From an uncultured SAR86 cluster bacterium (GTDB taxonomy: Bacteria; Pseudomonadota; Gammaproteobacteria; Magnimaribacterales; D2472): DNA of 64,000 nucleotides. Location of the stretch: assembly GCA_902511575.1 (NCBI GenBank), contig CABXFU010000005.1, forward strand, positions 1-64,000, written 5' to 3'. Shown here piece by piece: positions 32,953-43,014 of the stretch (position 1 is its first letter; each line of letters opens with the position of its first letter). Made by a program: the position numbers and the translations under genes. A model generated the notes under the pieces. It saw only the letters and a list, made by a program, of their open reading frames with translations. It did no database searches and was not told the DNA's origin.

Positions 32953-34546
32953 TTTTGGTCATAGTTGGCGAGCACATTTAATATATATTTTTTTAGGCAT
33001 TAGCCTTCTTATCTTAGTTTTTAGAATAGTAAGCCTTCAATATATTGAAGGAGACTTCTTAGCAACCAAAGGAAAGAATATGCTTGAGACTTCTAGATCA
33101 ATCCCTGCGAATCGCGGGAGCATATTGGATAGAAATAATTTTCCTCTTGCCGTATCCATCAATCAGTATGACTTATATGCTTTAAAGCATTTTTCTAAGG
33201 AGGATTTTAACAAATTAACAAATATTCTTTTTTTAAAAAAAGATTTTTCCGCTATTAAGCAGCTTAATAAAAAAACTTTAATTTTTTCTAATCTCGATTT
33301 CTCTCAATATGAGAATGTAAAAAGTCTTAATCTTTCTGGTGTTGAGATCGAATCATTTCAAAAAAGGTATTATCCATTAGGTGAGCAGGTATCTACCCTG
33401 ATTGGATTTGCTGGAAAAGATGGATTTGGTTTAGAGGGGCTTGAAAATATTTTGGATTCTGAGTTATCAGGGGTATCAGGTCGAGAGACCATTTATAGGA
33501 ATGCAAGCAGGAGACCCCAAGTGACCCAAGAGGTTATCCAGGGACTTGATACTAAATTAACTATTGATAGCAGAATTCAATTTTATGCATATAAGCATCT
33601 TTCAAGCTTTGTTGAGGCCAATGATGCAAAAGGTGGAAGCGTGATAGTTCTTGATAATATTTCTGGAGAAATTCTTGCTATCGCAAGTTACCCTTCATAC
33701 AACCCCAATAGCCCAAAAAGACAGATAAAAAGAAATAGAGCCTTGGTTGATGCATTCGAACCAGGCTCAATTATAAAACCGCTAGCTTTAGCCAAGGGCA
33801 TTGATATGGGGATACTCTCTAATACTCAGGTAATAGATACTAGTCCAGGATTTATAAATTTGAGTGGAAGGATGGTATCTGATCCAAAAAATTATAATAA
33901 TCTTACTGTTATTGAGGTTATTGCAAAATCAAGCCAAGTTGGAGCCTCGAAGCTAGCTTTGCAAGTTGGAATAGATGGATTGATTTCAGGCTACAGAGGA
34001 TTTGGTCTTTCAAAACCACCTAATGTTTTTTTCCCTGGAATTGCTTATGGAGTTATCAATTCTAGAGAAAATATTTCTGATCATGAAATAGCAAGTATTG
34101 GATTTGGCTACAGCATGACTGCTTCCTCATTACAATTAGCTCAAGCATATTCAGTTTTTGCAAATGAGGGATATCTTAAGGACTTTAAAATCTTTCTAGA
34201 TAATGCTGAAGTATATCAACAACGAGTAATAGGCAAAGATGCTGCCAATGATGTGTTGGAGTCTCTGAAATTAGTTATTTCAGACGGAACAGGAAAATTG
34301 GCAAGAATACCAAATTATGATGTGGCAGGAAAAACAGGCACATCTCATAAAGCTAGTTCTAAGGGTGGATATGATCAAAGTAAATATATAGCTTCTTTTG
34401 CAGGAATTGCACCATTAACATCTAAAAGACTTACAATTTTTGTCAGCATTGATGAGCCAGGATTAAATAATTATTCTGGTGGTAGTGTAGCCGCTCCATT
34501 ATTTGCCGCTATTTCTATTGATGTCTTAAATTATCTAGATGAATAA
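32942..34546 (+). CDS. ftsI: Septal peptidoglycan transpeptidase FtsI (PBP3)
   Basis: FtsI is the class B penicillin-binding protein that cross-links septal peptidoglycan with FtsW. The 534 residues comprise a membrane anchor (about 12-32), a pedestal domain with RGSILDRN, and the transpeptidase domain. The catalytic motif is SIIK (Ser276, Lys279) and KTGT is intact, but the SXN motif reads Ser330-Ser331-Gln332, with Gln where Asn is expected. It overlaps ftsL by 11 and murE by 8 bases. Confidence 0.96.
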   Translation: MKNNFGHSWRAHLIYIFLGISLLILVFRIVSLQYIEGDFLATKGKNMLETSRSIPANRGSILDRNNFPLAVSINQYDLYALKHFSKEDFNKLTNILFLKKDFSAIKQLNKKTLIFSNLDFSQYENVKSLNLSGVEIESFQKRYYPLGEQVSTLIGFAGKDGFGLEGLENILDSELSGVSGRETIYRNASRRPQVTQEVIQGLDTKLTIDSRIQFYAYKHLSSFVEANDAKGGSVIVLDNISGEILAIASYPSYNPNSPKRQIKRNRALVDAFEPGSIIKPLALAKGIDMGILSNTQVIDTSPGFINLSGRMVSDPKNYNNLTVIEVIAKSSQVGASKLALQVGIDGLISGYRGFGLSKPPNVFFPGIAYGVINSRENISDHEIASIGFGYSMTASSLQLAQAYSVFANEGYLKDFKIFLDNAEVYQQRVIGKDAANDVLESLKLVISDGTGKLARIPNYDVAGKTGTSHKASSKGGYDQSKYIASFAGIAPLTSKRLTIFVSIDEPGLNNYSGGSVAAPLFAAISIDVLNYLDE

Positions 34547-35999
34547 ACTATCTCTTATTAAACCTTTTATTAAAACGAATGTATTTGATAAATGCGTTAT
34601 TTCATCCATCACTGACGACTCTAGAGATGTCCAAAAAAATTCTTTATTTGTTGCAAGACAAGGAATAGCATCTCACGGAAAAGATTTTGTGAAAGATGCT
34701 ATTAGAAGGGGCGCATCTTGCATTATCAGTGATCAGAACTTTGAGGATAGGATAGAGATACCAATTTATTGCTTAAATAATTTAGAAGACCAAATCTTAG
34801 AAATCCTTTTTAGATTTCATGAACTCAGTGTGGATAATTTTGTCTTTCATGGTGTAACAGGTACTAATGGTAAAACAACAACTGCATTCATGGCACACAA
34901 CATTATAAGAGGGCTTGAAAAACCTTCAATTTATATTGGAACTCTGGGAGCATTTATCAATGATGATCTTATTCAAACCAAAGGCAATACAACGCCTGGA
35001 ATATTTGAGATATTACAAATTTTACAAGCCAGTAAGGCAAAACAAAAAACGTATGTTTTTCTTGAAATCTCTTCACATGCGTTAGAGCAAAAAAGGTTAG
35101 GCAGCTTACCCTTTTTTCAAACTATATTACTCAATATTCAATCTGATCATCTCGATTATCATAAAACATATAAAAACTACATTGATGCAAAATTATCTAT
35201 TACAGAGCTGAATAATAAGCACCCTACAATTATTTTTTTTGATAAAATTCAAGATTTGCTAGAATCTTTATCTAGCTCTCAAAAAAAACAACTCTCAACA
35301 TCAACATTCTTAAGTGCTAAAAATTCATCAGCCATGTTCAAGTATTCCGTGAACTATAAAACCCACGAGCCTTCAAAAATTAATTTAAATTTCCCAAGGA
35401 TAACCTTGAGTATTTATTGCTCATTATTTCTTAAATTTAATATTGAGAACTATATTTCTGCTATTGCGTTAATTTCAAAGCATATCTCTTCAACTAATTT
35501 AAATACTCTCAACAACACTTCAATTAAGTTACCTCAAGGAAGAGGAGAATTATTAAAGTTAAAACAAGGAAAAATTTTGATTGATTTTGCTCATGATCAT
35601 CTTTCTATCTTTAATATTTTGTCTGAATTAGCCAATTCCTATAATGAAATAATTGTAGTTTTCGGATGCGGTGGAGATAGAGATAAATCTAAGAGACCTA
35701 AAATGATGAGAGTAGTGCAAGATTTTGCAAGTAAAATATTTTTTACATCAGATAATAATCGCTATGAATCTTTCTCTTCCATCGCATCAGATGCAATGCA
35801 GGGAAACGATCATTCAGGCGCTGAAATTATTGAGGATAGGCAAGAGGCCATAAGATCGGCACTTCCTCACTTAAATAATGAAAATATATTGGTAATATTA
35901 GGTAAAGGACATGAAACAGATATAGAGATATTAGGAAAAAAAGTTCCATTTAATGATAAAGATTGTGTTTTAAAAATTATGGGCGATGAAATTAATTAA
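34539..35999 (+). CDS. murE: UDP-MurNAc-L-Ala-D-Glu ligase MurE (divergent)
   Basis: MurE adds the third stem-peptide residue, meso-diaminopimelate in Gram-negatives. The 486-residue protein has the ATP loop GTNGKTTTAF, the VFGCGGDRDKSKRP motif and GKGHE near the end. The DNPR motif that binds meso-DAP is DNNR (residues 405-408), so the arginine that contacts the DAP carboxylate is kept. The usual DYAHTPDAL is DFAHDHLSI, and the usual GRME-type motif reads GRGE. The changes cluster around the amino-acid site. It overlaps ftsI by 8 and murF by 14 bases. Confidence 0.93.
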   Translation: MNKLSLIKPFIKTNVFDKCVISSITDDSRDVQKNSLFVARQGIASHGKDFVKDAIRRGASCIISDQNFEDRIEIPIYCLNNLEDQILEILFRFHELSVDNFVFHGVTGTNGKTTTAFMAHNIIRGLEKPSIYIGTLGAFINDDLIQTKGNTTPGIFEILQILQASKAKQKTYVFLEISSHALEQKRLGSLPFFQTILLNIQSDHLDYHKTYKNYIDAKLSITELNNKHPTIIFFDKIQDLLESLSSSQKKQLSTSTFLSAKNSSAMFKYSVNYKTHEPSKINLNFPRITLSIYCSLFLKFNIENYISAIALISKHISSTNLNTLNNTSIKLPQGRGELLKLKQGKILIDFAHDHLSIFNILSELANSYNEIIVVFGCGGDRDKSKRPKMMRVVQDFASKIFFTSDNNRYESFSSIASDAMQGNDHSGAEIIEDRQEAIRSALPHLNNENILVILGKGHETDIEILGKKVPFNDKDCVLKIMGDEIN

Positions 36000-37332
36000 C
36001 AATACAAAAGATTTTTTAACTTTACTTAAGCTTGATGGTAAATCAAGCTTGCCAATTAGAAATTTCCAAATAGATTCAAGAAAGGTGCAAAAGAATTCAG
36101 TTTTTTTTGGTCTTAATGGCTCAAATGAAGATGGTAGCCTTTATGCGGAGGATGCAATTAAAAATGGAGCATCCCTTGCCATTGTAAAAAAAAGAAAAAC
36201 AGCAAATTCTATATTTAATTCATCAAAACTCATTAAAGTTCAAAGTCCGGAAGATGTTCTTATTCAGGCTGCTGAGATCGCAATGGAGAGATACAAGGGG
36301 AACATTATTGGAGTTACAGGCAGCAATGGAAAAACAACTACAAAAAATATTTTGAATTCCTGCATAAAAGATAGTTATGCCACTTACCAAAACTATAACA
36401 ATGAAATTGGTTTACCACTCTGTGCTTTAGAATTAGATTCACAAAAAAGTACTGCAATTTTTGAAATGGGTGCAGCAAAAAAGGGTGATATAGATCTTCT
36501 ATCTAAAATTATTAAACCGAATATAGGTATTATTACTCATATAGGCCACTCACATTTAGACGGACTAAACTCTGTTCAAGGAGTGCTAAAGGTAAAGTCA
36601 GAACTAATCAATAATATTAAACAAAACGGCTCAGCTATTGTTCCAGATGGTAAATATCTTAATTATTGGAAAAAAATAAGAAACGATATTACTTTTTATA
36701 CATTTGGTGAAAAATCTTCAGCATCTTATTTCCCAACTAAAATTAAGATGTCAAAACGAGGCCTATCTTTTTTTATTGAATCCATGCATTTAAAGAAAAG
36801 AATTCATGTAAAAACAAGACTTATAGGAATGCATAATGTGCTAAATATTCTTGCTTCTTTTGCGGCAATCCATATTTCTCAACTAAACATAGAGGAATTT
36901 TTAGATGGTTTGAGGCGCCTGCAAAACCCTCCTCAACGTTTAGATCTTAAAACATGGGTAAAAAAATCACAGGTCATCGATGATACATACAATGCTAATC
37001 CTGACTCTATGAGAGCTGCAATAGATGTTTTAAGTCAATTTAAAGGAAGAAAGATTGCAATTCTTGGAGATATGGCAGAACTAGGTAGATATAGAAAAAA
37101 ACTACACATTGCTATGGGAGACTATGCCAAAATACATGGAGTAGATTGTTTGCTTGGATATGGAGACCTAATCCGTCATGCTGTGTTTGCATATGGTGAT
37201 AATGCCTTTTTCTTTAACAGCAAAATAGAGTTGATAGATTTTCTAAAAAAAAATCTAGTCGGAAAAGAGAACATACTAATCAAAGGCTCAAGATCAATGC
37301 GAATGGAAGAAATTCTAGAGTTATGGAAATAA
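35986..37332 (+). CDS. murF: UDP-MurNAc-tripeptide-D-Ala-D-Ala ligase
   Basis: MurF adds D-alanyl-D-alanine to UDP-MurNAc-tripeptide. The 448-residue protein has the ATP loop GVTGSNGKTTTKN, the central domain marker IGMHNVLNILASFAA and the DDTYNANPDSMRAA motif, all regular, in contrast to neighbours MurE and MurD. It overlaps murE by 14 bases and is followed after one base by mraY. Confidence 0.96.
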   Translation: MKLINNTKDFLTLLKLDGKSSLPIRNFQIDSRKVQKNSVFFGLNGSNEDGSLYAEDAIKNGASLAIVKKRKTANSIFNSSKLIKVQSPEDVLIQAAEIAMERYKGNIIGVTGSNGKTTTKNILNSCIKDSYATYQNYNNEIGLPLCALELDSQKSTAIFEMGAAKKGDIDLLSKIIKPNIGIITHIGHSHLDGLNSVQGVLKVKSELINNIKQNGSAIVPDGKYLNYWKKIRNDITFYTFGEKSSASYFPTKIKMSKRGLSFFIESMHLKKRIHVKTRLIGMHNVLNILASFAAIHISQLNIEEFLDGLRRLQNPPQRLDLKTWVKKSQVIDDTYNANPDSMRAAIDVLSQFKGRKIAILGDMAELGRYRKKLHIAMGDYAKIHGVDCLLGYGDLIRHAVFAYGDNAFFFNSKIELIDFLKKNLVGKENILIKGSRSMRMEEILELWK

Positions 37333-37333
37333 T

Positions 37334-38419
37334 ATGATTGAATTACTTGGCACTTGGTTAATGACATATGATTCTGGCTTCGATGTTCTGCGTTATTTAA
37401 CTGTAAGAACTATTGGCGGAACTTTAACTGCGCTAATGTTATCAATTTTTATTGGCCCAGCTTTAATAAAATTCTTATCAAATATTCAGTTCTCACAATC
37501 GATTAGGGGAGATGGACCTGAATCACACCTAGCAAAATCTGGAACCCCAACCATGGGAGGGTTAATTATTATCTCCTCATTAATTATCTCAACATTGCTT
37601 TGGTCAGATTTTAAAAATCCATATATATGGATTTTACTTTTTATTACTGTCTCTTTTAGCCTAATAGGATTTCTTGATGATTGGTTAAAAATTAAGGAAA
37701 AAAATTCAAAAGGTTTAAAGGGGAGATATAAGATTATATTGCAATTTATTTTTGCTTTGATGGCAATGCTATTTATGTTGGAGGTTTCTCCTGCTGGGAA
37801 TGAGCAAATTTTTATTCTGCCTTTTAATAAAGAGTACATATTTGCAATCTCACCTTTTATTTTCTTGCTTATAAGTATTTTTGTAATAATGGGTTCATCT
37901 AATGCAGTTAATCTGACCGATGGTCTAGACGGGCTTGCAATTCTCCCTACAGTCTTAATAGCTGGGGGCCTGGGCCTGATTGCTTATGCATCTGGAAATT
38001 TAATTATATCTGACTATTTATTTATTCCATTTAACCCTCTTAGCGGTGAGTTAATTGTTTTTTGCGGAGCATTGATTGGAGCTGGGATAGGTTTTCTATG
38101 GTACAACACATACCCTGCACAGATTTTCATGGGTGACTTGGGATCTTTAACGCTTGGAGGAATTTTAGGCACTCTAGCAGTGCTAATTCGGCATGAGGTA
38201 GTTTTTGCTATTATGGCCGGAGTTTTTGTGATGGAAACTTTGAGCGTTATTATCCAAGTCGGTTCATATAAATTAAGAGGTAAAAGGGTTTTTTTAATGG
38301 CACCCATTCATCATCATTTTGAATTGAAGGGCTGGGCCGAGCCAAAGGTCATTGTCCGATTCTGGATTATAACTTTTGTTCTTGTTTTATTTGCACTCGC
38401 AACCCTAAAATTAAGATAA
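37334..38419 (+). CDS. mraY: Phospho-MurNAc-pentapeptide translocase
   Basis: MraY transfers phospho-MurNAc-pentapeptide to undecaprenyl phosphate, forming lipid I. The 361-residue protein has about ten membrane helices and the conserved catalytic loops GTPTMGG, FLDDWLK, NAVNLTDGLDGLA and FMGDLGSL, plus the MAPIHHHFE histidine motif. Length and motifs are normal. Confidence 0.97.
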   Translation: MIELLGTWLMTYDSGFDVLRYLTVRTIGGTLTALMLSIFIGPALIKFLSNIQFSQSIRGDGPESHLAKSGTPTMGGLIIISSLIISTLLWSDFKNPYIWILLFITVSFSLIGFLDDWLKIKEKNSKGLKGRYKIILQFIFALMAMLFMLEVSPAGNEQIFILPFNKEYIFAISPFIFLLISIFVIMGSSNAVNLTDGLDGLAILPTVLIAGGLGLIAYASGNLIISDYLFIPFNPLSGELIVFCGALIGAGIGFLWYNTYPAQIFMGDLGSLTLGGILGTLAVLIRHEVVFAIMAGVFVMETLSVIIQVGSYKLRGKRVFLMAPIHHHFELKGWAEPKVIVRFWIITFVLVLFALATLKLR

Positions 38420-38425
38420 TCCTTA

Positions 38426-39487
38426 ATGAAATCTCTTATTTTTGGTTATGGAGTTACAGGCCAATCTTTTGAAAGATATTTAAAGAAAAAAAATATAGTC
38501 TTCGAAATTTATGATGCAAATCTAATAGGGCCCAATATCAACAATATACTACCTGATCAAAAAAAATTAGAATCTTATGAAATGATCTACATGAGCCCAG
38601 GAATCAATCTTCAGGAGATTTATTCAAAAGGAGAGTTTGATGGAATTCCCTATTTAACTGACATAGATATTTTTTTCCAAGAAGATCATTCTTATAAGAT
38701 CGGTATTACTGGCACAAATGGAAAGAGTACTTGCTGCTATCATTTGTATCAGCTTTTGGAGAATTCTCAACTCGTTGGCAATATTGGAACTCCGGTATTG
38801 GATAATATTAATTCGTGCTCATATTCGATTATTGAACTTTCAAGCTTTCAGCTAGAGAAGGCAAAGGAATTGCATTTAGATTTTGGAGTTCTTTTAAATA
38901 TTTCACCTGATCATGTTGATTATCATGGAAGTTTCTCAGAATATGCAAAGGTTAAAAATAGAATTAAGGAATCAAAAATAGTAACTGAAGAATCAGACCC
39001 AAGGAAATTGTGGTCCATGATTACAGGCAGAGATCAAAGAGAGGTTATGAATATTGCATTATTAGATTTGCCTCATAGATATCAAAAGGTTTTAAAGCAT
39101 GATCAGCTAACATTTATCAATGATTCAAAGGCAACTAATTTGACTGCGTTGAAATATGCTTTAAATCAAACCTCTGGTCCTTGTGTACTAATTCTTTGCG
39201 GGGATCCTGATAAAGAGCAATATGATTTCTATGAAACCTCTGATCCATTTAAGATCTATATCTTTGGTAAACATGCAGAAGATATATCAAAGAAATTATT
39301 TCATTCAGAAAAAATATTATTCCATAATCAAGATCTGTCTATAGTAATAAAGTCTATTTTTAATGAAGTTTACGATCGCCACACAACCATACTATTTTCA
39401 CCAGGTCATCCTAGCGGTCAAGATTATAAAAATTTTGAAGAACGTGGAGAGCACTTTATAAAATTAGTAATGAATTTATATGATTGA
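38426..39487 (+). CDS. murD: UDP-MurNAc-L-alanine--D-glutamate ligase MurD (shortened)
   Basis: MurD adds D-glutamate to UDP-MurNAc-L-Ala. This one has 353 residues against 438 in E. coli. It keeps the ATP loop GTNGKST (residues 95-101), the NISPDHVDYHG segment, a lysine at 177 aligned with the carbamylated Lys198 of E. coli, INDSKATN, and SPGHPSGQDYKNFEERG. About 60 residues between Lys177 and LPHR (215-218) are missing, including the GxHNxxN segment of the central ATP-binding domain. The frame is open with no stop, so this is a real short form or an old in-frame deletion. It overlaps ftsW by 8 bases. Confidence 0.9.
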   Translation: MKSLIFGYGVTGQSFERYLKKKNIVFEIYDANLIGPNINNILPDQKKLESYEMIYMSPGINLQEIYSKGEFDGIPYLTDIDIFFQEDHSYKIGITGTNGKSTCCYHLYQLLENSQLVGNIGTPVLDNINSCSYSIIELSSFQLEKAKELHLDFGVLLNISPDHVDYHGSFSEYAKVKNRIKESKIVTEESDPRKLWSMITGRDQREVMNIALLDLPHRYQKVLKHDQLTFINDSKATNLTALKYALNQTSGPCVLILCGDPDKEQYDFYETSDPFKIYIFGKHAEDISKKLFHSEKILFHNQDLSIVIKSIFNEVYDRHTTILFSPGHPSGQDYKNFEERGEHFIKLVMNLYD

Positions 39488-40583
39488 TCGAGAAAATATA
39501 TTCATTATTCTTCCATACTTCTGTTTGCTATTCATTGGTATGGTGATGGTTGCATCTTCGAGTGTTTATGTTTCTGAAGATATTTACGGGACTCCATTCC
39601 ATTTTGCATCAAGACAAATAATTTTTTTCATTGTCGGCATTGTTGCAACAATCGTTGCCTTAAGCATCCCTTCAAATTTATTTCTTACATTGGATTGGGT
39701 CATTTTAATGGGATCCTTCCTGTTGCTTATCGCTCTTTTTTTTCCTGGAGTAGGCACAGAAGTAAATGGAAGCTTGAGGTGGATTAGATTAGGACCAATC
39801 AACATTCAGCCCTCCGAAGTCAGCAAGTTAGCTCTGGTAATTTATATTTCTGGGTACTGTGTTAGAAGATTGGGTGAAATCAATACTTCGCTGGGTTTTT
39901 TTAGGCCCTTAATTGTACTAGCTTTTTTTGGACTTTTGATTATGTCTCAACCTGATCTTGGGTCAACTCTGGTAATAGGAGCTTTGGTTATTGCTGTATT
40001 ATTTTTTGCAGGAATTTCATTTTTCCAATTCTCTTTATTAGTATCATTAATGGGCAGTTTGGCTGCAATTGCTATCTATTTAGAGCCATATAGATATATA
40101 AGATTTATTTCATTTACTGAGCCATTTGAGAATTTTTATGGACCAGGATGGCAGTTATCAAATGCTCTGCTTGGAATTGGTAGGGGCGAATGGTTTGGTA
40201 TGGGCTTGGGGAATAGTCTTCAAAAAAATTTGTACCTCCCTGAACCACATACTGATTTTATTTTTGCAGTAATAGTTGAAGAATTTGGATTGGTTGGAGG
40301 ATTGATAGTCATTTTACTCTTTGCCTTATTAATTTATGGAATTCTCGCAACATCCATCAAAGCACTTGAGCTTGGTAAATTGTTTCAGGGGTTGCTTGCC
40401 TTTGGAGCGGGAATTTTAATCGCAATTCAAGTAGTATTTAACTTAGGAGTGAATCTTGGACTCTTGCCTACAAAAGGGTTAACTCTCCCATTTATTAGCT
40501 ATGGGGGAACAAGTCTAATTTTATTCATGTTTTTAATGGGCATGGTGTTGAGAATTAATTTTGAAAATAAAACGATAAAGTAA
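39480..40583 (+). CDS. ftsW: Septal peptidoglycan glycosyltransferase FtsW
   Basis: FtsW is the SEDS-family glycosyltransferase that polymerises lipid II at the septum with FtsI. The 367-residue protein has about ten membrane helices, LGPINIQPSEVSKLALVIY, MSQPDLGSTLVIGAL, the PEPHTDFIFAVIVEEFG motif with the catalytic aspartate region, and LPFISYGGTSLI. It overlaps murD by 8 bases and murG by one base. Confidence 0.96.
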   Translation: MIDRENIFIILPYFCLLFIGMVMVASSSVYVSEDIYGTPFHFASRQIIFFIVGIVATIVALSIPSNLFLTLDWVILMGSFLLLIALFFPGVGTEVNGSLRWIRLGPINIQPSEVSKLALVIYISGYCVRRLGEINTSLGFFRPLIVLAFFGLLIMSQPDLGSTLVIGALVIAVLFFAGISFFQFSLLVSLMGSLAAIAIYLEPYRYIRFISFTEPFENFYGPGWQLSNALLGIGRGEWFGMGLGNSLQKNLYLPEPHTDFIFAVIVEEFGLVGGLIVILLFALLIYGILATSIKALELGKLFQGLLAFGAGILIAIQVVFNLGVNLGLLPTKGLTLPFISYGGTSLILFMFLMGMVLRINFENKTIK

Positions 40584-41622: not shown

Positions 41623-43014
41623 ATGGCTTATCTAGGATTTCAAAAGTTTAAAAAAATTCATATGATTGGCATTGGCGGTTCCGGAATGATCGGAGTGGCG
41701 ACTATTTTACAAAAACGTGGTTTTAAAGTTACAGGTTCAGATCTTGTAATAACTGACGAGCTGAAGGAATTAAAAAAATTAGGTGCTAAAGTTCAAATTG
41801 GTCATGAGCCTAAGCTTATTAAAAATGCAGATTTAGTTGTTGCTTCTTCAGCAATATCCAAGAAAAACTCTGAACTCTTGCATGCCAAGAATTCTGGAAT
41901 AACTATTATTCCAAGAGCTGAAATGCTTGGAACTCTTATGAGGCCCTATCGGAGCGTTGCAATTGCTGGTAGTCACGGCAAGACAACTACAACAAGCATT
42001 ATTGCAAGTATTTTTAATGCGGCAAATTTAAGCCCAACTTATGTTATTGGAGGTCAAGTATTAAGCGTTGGTAGAAGCTCTAATCTTGGAGATGGCAATT
42101 ATATTATTGTAGAAGCAGATGAAAGCGATGGATCATTTTTACATCTGCAGCCTGATGTTGCTGTGATCACTAATATTGATAATGATCATTTAAGTTTCTA
42201 TGAATCAGATCAGGAAAAATTAAATCAGTCTTTTGTAAATTTTGCAGAAAATTTACCTTTTTATGGCCACATCATTCTCAATATAGACGATGCAAACGTT
42301 CGTAAAATTTCTAAAGATATTCATAGAACGCAAATTACTTTTGGTTTTAGTTCAAAAAATAGATTTCAAATAGTCAATATTAAACTAATAAACAGCGTTC
42401 AAAAATTTCAATTAATAGATAATGCTAATAAAAAGAACTACAAATTTTCTACCCATTTAAGTGGCAAACATAATTTATACAATATTGCTGCAGCTATCTG
42501 TGTAGCAATAGAAGAAAATATATCTATAAAGAATATTGCTAAAGGATTGAATGACTTTCAAGGAGTCGGAAGAAGGTTTGAGCTTTCAAAAATCTATCTT
42601 GCAGATCAACCTCATGTATTAATAGATGATTATGGCCATCATCCCGCTGAAATACTATCAACCATTCTGGCAACTAAAGAAAAATTTCCTCGAAAAAAGA
42701 TTTGCATGATTTTTGAGCCTCATAGATATACAAGAACACAACAACTGTTTGATGATTTTGTAAAAGTTCTTTCTAAAGTAGATTTCCTTCTTTTGTTAGA
42801 TATATATCCGGCAAGCGAAAAACCTATCAAAGGGATTTCATCAAAAAAAATTGCTTTTCAGATATCGAAGAATCATAAGAATGCTCACTATCTTGGAAAT
42901 CAAGACCCGATAGATTGGCTCCAAAACAATCATCAAGACTTTTCGATTTTAATTACTCAAGGGGCAGGAACAATCTCAAAACTAAATAATGAGATCAAAA
43001 AAAAGTGGCAATAA
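41623..43014 (+). CDS. murC: UDP-N-acetylmuramate--L-alanine ligase
   Basis: MurC adds L-alanine to UDP-MurNAc. The 463-residue protein has the Rossmann start HMIGIGGSGMIGVA, ATP loop IAGSHGKTTTTS, the VEADESDGSFLHLQP segment, and DDYGHHPAEI. Motifs and length are ordinary. It overlaps ddl by 10 bases. Confidence 0.97.
   Translation: MAYLGFQKFKKIHMIGIGGSGMIGVATILQKRGFKVTGSDLVITDELKELKKLGAKVQIGHEPKLIKNADLVVASSAISKKNSELLHAKNSGITIIPRAEMLGTLMRPYRSVAIAGSHGKTTTTSIIASIFNAANLSPTYVIGGQVLSVGRSSNLGDGNYIIVEADESDGSFLHLQPDVAVITNIDNDHLSFYESDQEKLNQSFVNFAENLPFYGHIILNIDDANVRKISKDIHRTQITFGFSSKNRFQIVNIKLINSVQKFQLIDNANKKNYKFSTHLSGKHNLYNIAAAICVAIEENISIKNIAKGLNDFQGVGRRFELSKIYLADQPHVLIDDYGHHPAEILSTILATKEKFPRKKICMIFEPHRYTRTQQLFDDFVKVLSKVDFLLLLDIYPASEKPIKGISSKKIAFQISKNHKNAHYLGNQDPIDWLQNNHQDFSILITQGAGTISKLNNEIKKKWQ

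Follow-up and report, generated by a model that had tools for sequence, protein, structure and literature searches.

We analysed a 64,000-nucleotide stretch of DNA from an uncultured SAR86 cluster bacterium (contig CABXFU010000005.1, positions 1 to 64,000 of the forward strand; hereafter the window), whose murD gene (38426–39487, + strand) encodes a short MurD of 353 residues without the GxHNxxN adenine motif and without a large part of the central adenosine triphosphate (ATP)-binding domain. SAR86 are small bacteria that are abundant in the surface ocean. MurD is an essential cell-wall enzyme, and the Mur ligases, well known from textbooks and as drug targets, have an adenine motif that is, to our knowledge, treated as invariant. 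No report on SAR86 and murD together was found in the literature searched. The comparisons below make it likely that this protein, with no other MurD found beside it in the genome, still performs the addition of D-glutamate (D-Glu) with a central ATP domain that has been pared to its core in steps.

The central domain of the window MurD

The spacing between the carbamylated lysine and the hinge arginine is 41 residues in the window protein (K177 to R218), whereas it is 104 residues in Escherichia coli MurD (K198 to R302). An earlier reading made from the letters alone (the sequence-only reading) had described a central gap of about 60 residues between the carbamyl lysine and the LPHR motif and the loss of the GxHNxxN segment, and both descriptions hold. 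The motif, which contains N268 and N271 of MurD, is absent from the window MurD and is kept in this genome's MurC (GKHNLYN) and MurF (GMHNVLN). The Pfam domain Mur_ligase_M (PF08245) is incomplete in the window MurD, which matches positions 1–111 of the 200 profile positions only, while the MurE, MurF, and MurC of the operon are matched up to position 199 or 200. Overall, 85 residues are missing, and about 20 of them lie outside the central segment, mostly in the N-terminal domain.

A residual linker (residues 178–214, 38957–39067, + strand), delimited by spacing and profile alignment, replaces approximately 100 residues of E. coli MurD that form the β-subdomain, the GxHNxxN helix, and the helix after it. 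Within the linker, a conserved PxxLxxxITG stretch (DPRKLWSMITG, residues 191–201, 38996–39028, + strand) coincides with a low-confidence predicted helix and aligns over the helix of a 415-residue form by profile alignment, and could therefore be what is left of the adenine helix. We take this suggestion from the profile alignment; in a simple multiple alignment, the asparagine of that helix may be wrongly placed for the form from genus g6 (f1–f4 denote the four SAR86 families, and g1–g10 are genera of f1).

Retained residues and a putative nucleotide site

The equivalents of E. coli K115, E157, H183, K198, R302, D317, K319, T321, S415, and F422 are all retained in the window MurD, including the P-loop and the residues by which we recognise a MurD (E157, H183, K198, R302, D317, and K319). 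By alignment, and on the + strand throughout, these are found in the P-loop TGTNGKS (residues 95–101, 38708–38728; K100 corresponds to K115), the NISPDH loop (residues 158–163, 38897–38914; H163 corresponds to H183), K177 (38954–38956), which corresponds to the carbamylated K198 and is invariant in every aligned MurD, the LPHR hinge (residues 215–218, 39068–39079; R218 corresponds to R302, also by spacing), and the NDSKATN segment (residues 232–238, 39119–39139; D233, K235, and T237 correspond to D317, K319, and T321). Two loops are altered. CGDPDKEQY (residues 258–266, 39197–39223) is the counterpart of GGDGKSADF in the K348 region, and SPGHPSGQD (residues 325–333, 39398–39424) is the counterpart of SPACASLDQ in the S415 region.

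In the enzyme that we propose, the central ATP-binding domain is reduced to a P-loop/Rossmann core, and a linker of some 37 residues, probably with one short helix (191–201), takes the place of the deleted β-subdomain and GxHNxxN adenine helix. The phosphates of ATP would be held by K100 of the P-loop and the hinge R218, the metal by E137, H163, and K177, and the ribose by D233. Modelling of Mpl and MurT on MurC and MurF predicts three residues in contact with the adenine, of which two lie in the GxHNxxN region and the third is an asparagine ahead of the nucleotide-site loop, Asn205 in Mpl (PMC3060825) and Asn132 in MurT (PMC6085368). By analogy, N158 (the N of LNISPDH) would be the one remaining of three predicted adenine asparagines and would hold the adenine, perhaps with help from residue 190 or 191, where the short helix begins. 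In this explanation, we infer that the enzyme is active, how the linker runs, and which contact replaces the lost ones at the adenine. More tentatively, the short MurD might bind ATP without the standard adenine pocket, either as a nucleotide-promiscuous enzyme or through a new adenine contact from the 191–201 helix, which we consider possible rather than probable.

Several points weigh against this proposal. Two of the three adenine asparagines assigned by analogy are absent, which could lower the affinity or specificity for ATP. The lysine of the K348 position is present, but shifted by one residue, so that the D-Glu contacts are not certain. An AlphaFold2 model from the window protein and ten genus homologues reached a predicted local distance difference test score of 51, which makes it unusable, and it supports no claim beyond the low-confidence helix at 191–201; a scan of viral contigs for further MurD homologues for the structure prediction found none. 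The SAR86 genomes are 83–97% complete, so that a second gene could have been overlooked in any one of them, although it would need to have been overlooked in all.

The substrate of the short MurD

In the D-Glu site, the equivalents of S415, F422, and T321 are kept, and the lysine corresponding to K348 is displaced by one residue. MurD2, a ligase of L-glutamate (L-Glu), has Glu in place of D182 and Arg in place of K348 of MurD, and the D182 position helps to separate MurD from MurD2 (PMC8788868). The D182 equivalent is Asp in SAR86 MurD, the window protein included, and because of this difference from MurD2, D-Glu is the more likely substrate of the short MurD, as judged from sequence.

The source of D-Glu was also investigated. 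The glutamate racemase MurI (TIGR00067) gave no match in 40 SAR86 genomes from all four families, in a search whose controls worked. Weak matches to PF01177 (Asp/Glu racemase) were considered as MurI candidates, and those that were read proved to be PanB. A D-amino-acid aminotransferase is a known alternative source of D-Glu. Proteins resembling this enzyme are encoded in f2 and f3 (200–235 bits) and, mostly with weaker scores, in f1, all under the curated cut-off; each f4 genome has a single class IV aminotransferase, also under the curated cut-off.

The undetected MurI, together with the CGDPxKE and SPGxPSG loops in place of GGDGKS and SPACASLD, would be compatible with an active short MurD of changed substrate, namely another amino acid or L-Glu by a MurD2-like route. 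Xanthomonas MurD2 is likewise a MurD homologue in a genome without glutamate racemase, but it is full length by residue numbering (changes up to 435, PMC8788868). We consider such a change of substrate unlikely. The D182 equivalent, Glu in MurD2, is still Asp in SAR86, the S415 and F422 equivalents are kept, MurE as the next enzyme is normal, and f2 and f3 encode the aminotransferase-like proteins described above. Moreover, f2 and f3 have longer MurDs and also lack a detected MurI, so the short MurD and the absence of MurI are not linked.

A probable stepwise shortening of MurD in SAR86

The K198–R302 spacing is 92–103 residues in f2, 65–68 in f3, and 44–47 in f4, and within f1 it is 106 in g10, 76 in g6, and 38–44 in g1–g5 and g7–g9. 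The short spacing of 38–47 residues is thus found in nine genera of two SAR86 families, and the K198 and R302 equivalents are invariant across all SAR86 forms. The MurDs of f3, f2, g6, and g10 have the same order and operon as the window gene and form a graded series towards its short form, from which they differ by their longer spacing. N271 is kept in f2, f3, and g10, N268 is already replaced in f2 and f3, and the short forms are without the whole helix. This distribution suggests a lineage-wide, stepwise shortening in SAR86, in which N268 and part of the β-subdomain would have been lost first and the N271 helix later, presumably during genome reduction.

In a MurD tree calculated without the deleted columns, the short forms of f1 and f4 form one clade (100/99), which is sister to g6 and g10 (98/95), whereas g6 and g10 are nested in f1 in the tree of six other proteins of the division and cell wall (dcw) cluster. 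With the MurD data, the approximately unbiased test rejected f1 as a single clade (p = 0.0013) and the grouping of g1, g6, and g10 (p = 0.0007). Because the MurD tree conflicts with that of its dcw neighbours, murD was probably exchanged between SAR86 lineages, or a longer copy was regained in g6/g10, a reading weakened by long branches and AT-rich composition.

A variation of the P-loop was observed in five f1 genera. The MurD P-loop reads TGTNRKS in g5, g7, g8, and g9 and TGTNKKS in g3, so that the glycine preceding the invariant lysine is replaced (loci L025-L032, L035, L054, L056-L065). The same glycine is kept in MurC, MurE, and MurF at these loci, and in the window MurD.

The same loss in MurF

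MurF is 385 residues long in f4 and 412–417 in f3, against 444–455 (f3 and f4 loci L132-L135). According to the alignment, its central segment with GxHNxxN is absent from the f4 form and largely absent from the f3 form. The segment is homologous to that lost in the window MurD, although MurF is a different ligase and the window's own MurF is intact. In all genomes tested, MurC retains GxHNxxN, and the length of MurE is unchanged. Since two SAR86 families show this loss in MurF as well, the Mur-ligase fold seems able to do without the segment, and the strongest evidence for a removable module comes from this recurrence.

The loss in MurF also bears on the idea of a split enzyme, in which a partner protein would supply the missing part in trans, as a second partner would then be needed. 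Nothing direct supports such a partner, and only the two lost conserved adenine contacts leave a gap that it could fill. A PF08245 search found no separate Mur_ligase_M fragment in 16 genomes, and no additional gene lies between mraY and ftsW, which makes a split enzyme quite improbable.

Operon context and selection

The murD open reading frame lies 6 base pairs after the end of mraY (37334–38419) and overlaps ftsW (39480–40583) by 8 base pairs, in line with the earlier description of an in-frame gene within a tight operon. The order ftsI-murE-murF-mraY-murD-ftsW-murG-murC-ddlB-ftsQ-ftsA is that of E. coli, with mraY and ftsW named from their reading frames and this order, and ftsI, ddlB, ftsQ, and ftsA from position and the reading of translations. 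MurE (34539–35999), MurF (35986–37332), and MurC (41623–43014) are of normal length, and all of these genes are on the + strand.

The window protein scores 215.3 bits against TIGR01087, the curated MurD model, a small margin over the cut-off of 211.95, and many other SAR86 short forms score just under this cut-off. Among solved structures in the PDB, its best matches are MurDs (1e-30). By its orthologous position between mraY and ftsW, its descent, and its curated score, the window gene is a murD orthologue. Because GxHNxxN is absent, we file the protein as a variant MurD, an orthologue by descent that, by alignment, is without the canonical Mur-ligase adenine motif and a complete central domain, and not as a canonical Mur ligase. 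A single murD is present in the source genome, a draft of 1.39 Mb in 25 contigs that is 83% complete. A Mur ligase central domain occurs in five of its proteins, of which four are MurC, MurD, MurE, and MurF by position and one is encoded outside the operon (open frame of 448 codons) and is probably FolC, judging by its length. A second intact murD, which the sequence-only reading had named as a refuting find, was not found in this genome by the search for Mur-ligase-domain proteins.

Alignment with relatives, the check proposed with that reading, showed the short form to be fixed, as all 19 of 19 genus matches have it over the full span in open frames of 355–365 codons. It is also present in independently assembled single-cell genomes and metagenome-assembled genomes of close relatives in the SAR86 cluster. 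The ratio of non-synonymous to synonymous substitutions (dN/dS) of murD is 0.12–0.25 in the closest pairs. The corresponding polymorphism ratio (pN/pS) over eleven genus genomes is 0.248 for murD, 0.259 for murE, 0.228 for murF, 0.241 for murG, and 0.151 for murC. The linker alone has a pN/pS of 0.34, against 0.25 for the whole murD. Selection constrains the short murD as strongly as its full-length operon neighbours. Conservation and selection together support the suggestion that the gene is probably functional.

These values bear directly on the possibility that the gene is decaying or non-catalytic and that another ligase performs the step. The divergence from canonical MurD, with a score barely above the TIGR01087 cut-off, and the R or K in the P-loop of five sister genera could be read in this way. 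However, dN/dS is far below 1 and equal to that of the operon neighbours, the catalytic residues are retained, the short form is stable across two families, and the genome contains no other candidate ligase; we thus regard decay as very improbable. An assembly or frameshift artefact, conceivable in a draft genome, has a negligible probability given the same length in the 19 genus genomes and the independent assemblies and the continuous open frame with homology on either side of the junction; a lone deletion or assembly error was looked for and not found, as close relatives are without a full-length MurD and the long form occurs in distant SAR86 lineages.

Reduced MurDs outside SAR86

In a census of 230 gammaproteobacterial genomes (about 150 families), the better matches, which are those listed, have open frames of at least 435 codons. 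Following up sixteen weak or missing cases added a single clearly reduced group (f123, with two genomes, 1.0–1.2 Mb; L158, L159), which has a spacing of 67. Among 147 genomes of an alphaproteobacterial order with small genomes, a reduced MurD (spacing 65) was found in one genus only (g402, two genomes; L170, L191). Both groups, in which MurD is partly reduced, have genomes of about 1 Mb. The alphaproteobacterial MurDs are placed beside the short clade when added to the tree, a placement made unsafe by composition warnings.

Comparison with E. coli MurD and implications

The window MurD shares with E. coli MurD and the TIGR01087 family the operon position, the three-part layout, the P-loop, the metal and carbamyl-lysine residues, the hinge arginine, the NDSKATN segment, and the SPxxxS...F substrate region. 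It differs from the E. coli enzyme in the central spacing, in the absence of the β-subdomain and the GxHNxxN helix, in a shorter N-terminal domain, and in the altered SPGHPSG and CGDPDKE loops. A natural, selected MurD without the adenine motif makes a minimal Mur ligase testable, and the SAR86 spacing series of 106, 92–103, 76, 65–68, 44–47, and 38–44 residues provides constructs that are ready to use. If ATP is indeed bound without the standard adenine pocket, the GxHNxxN helix and the β-subdomain, which canonical Mur ligases conserve, would be dispensable and would have been lost independently in MurD and in MurF.
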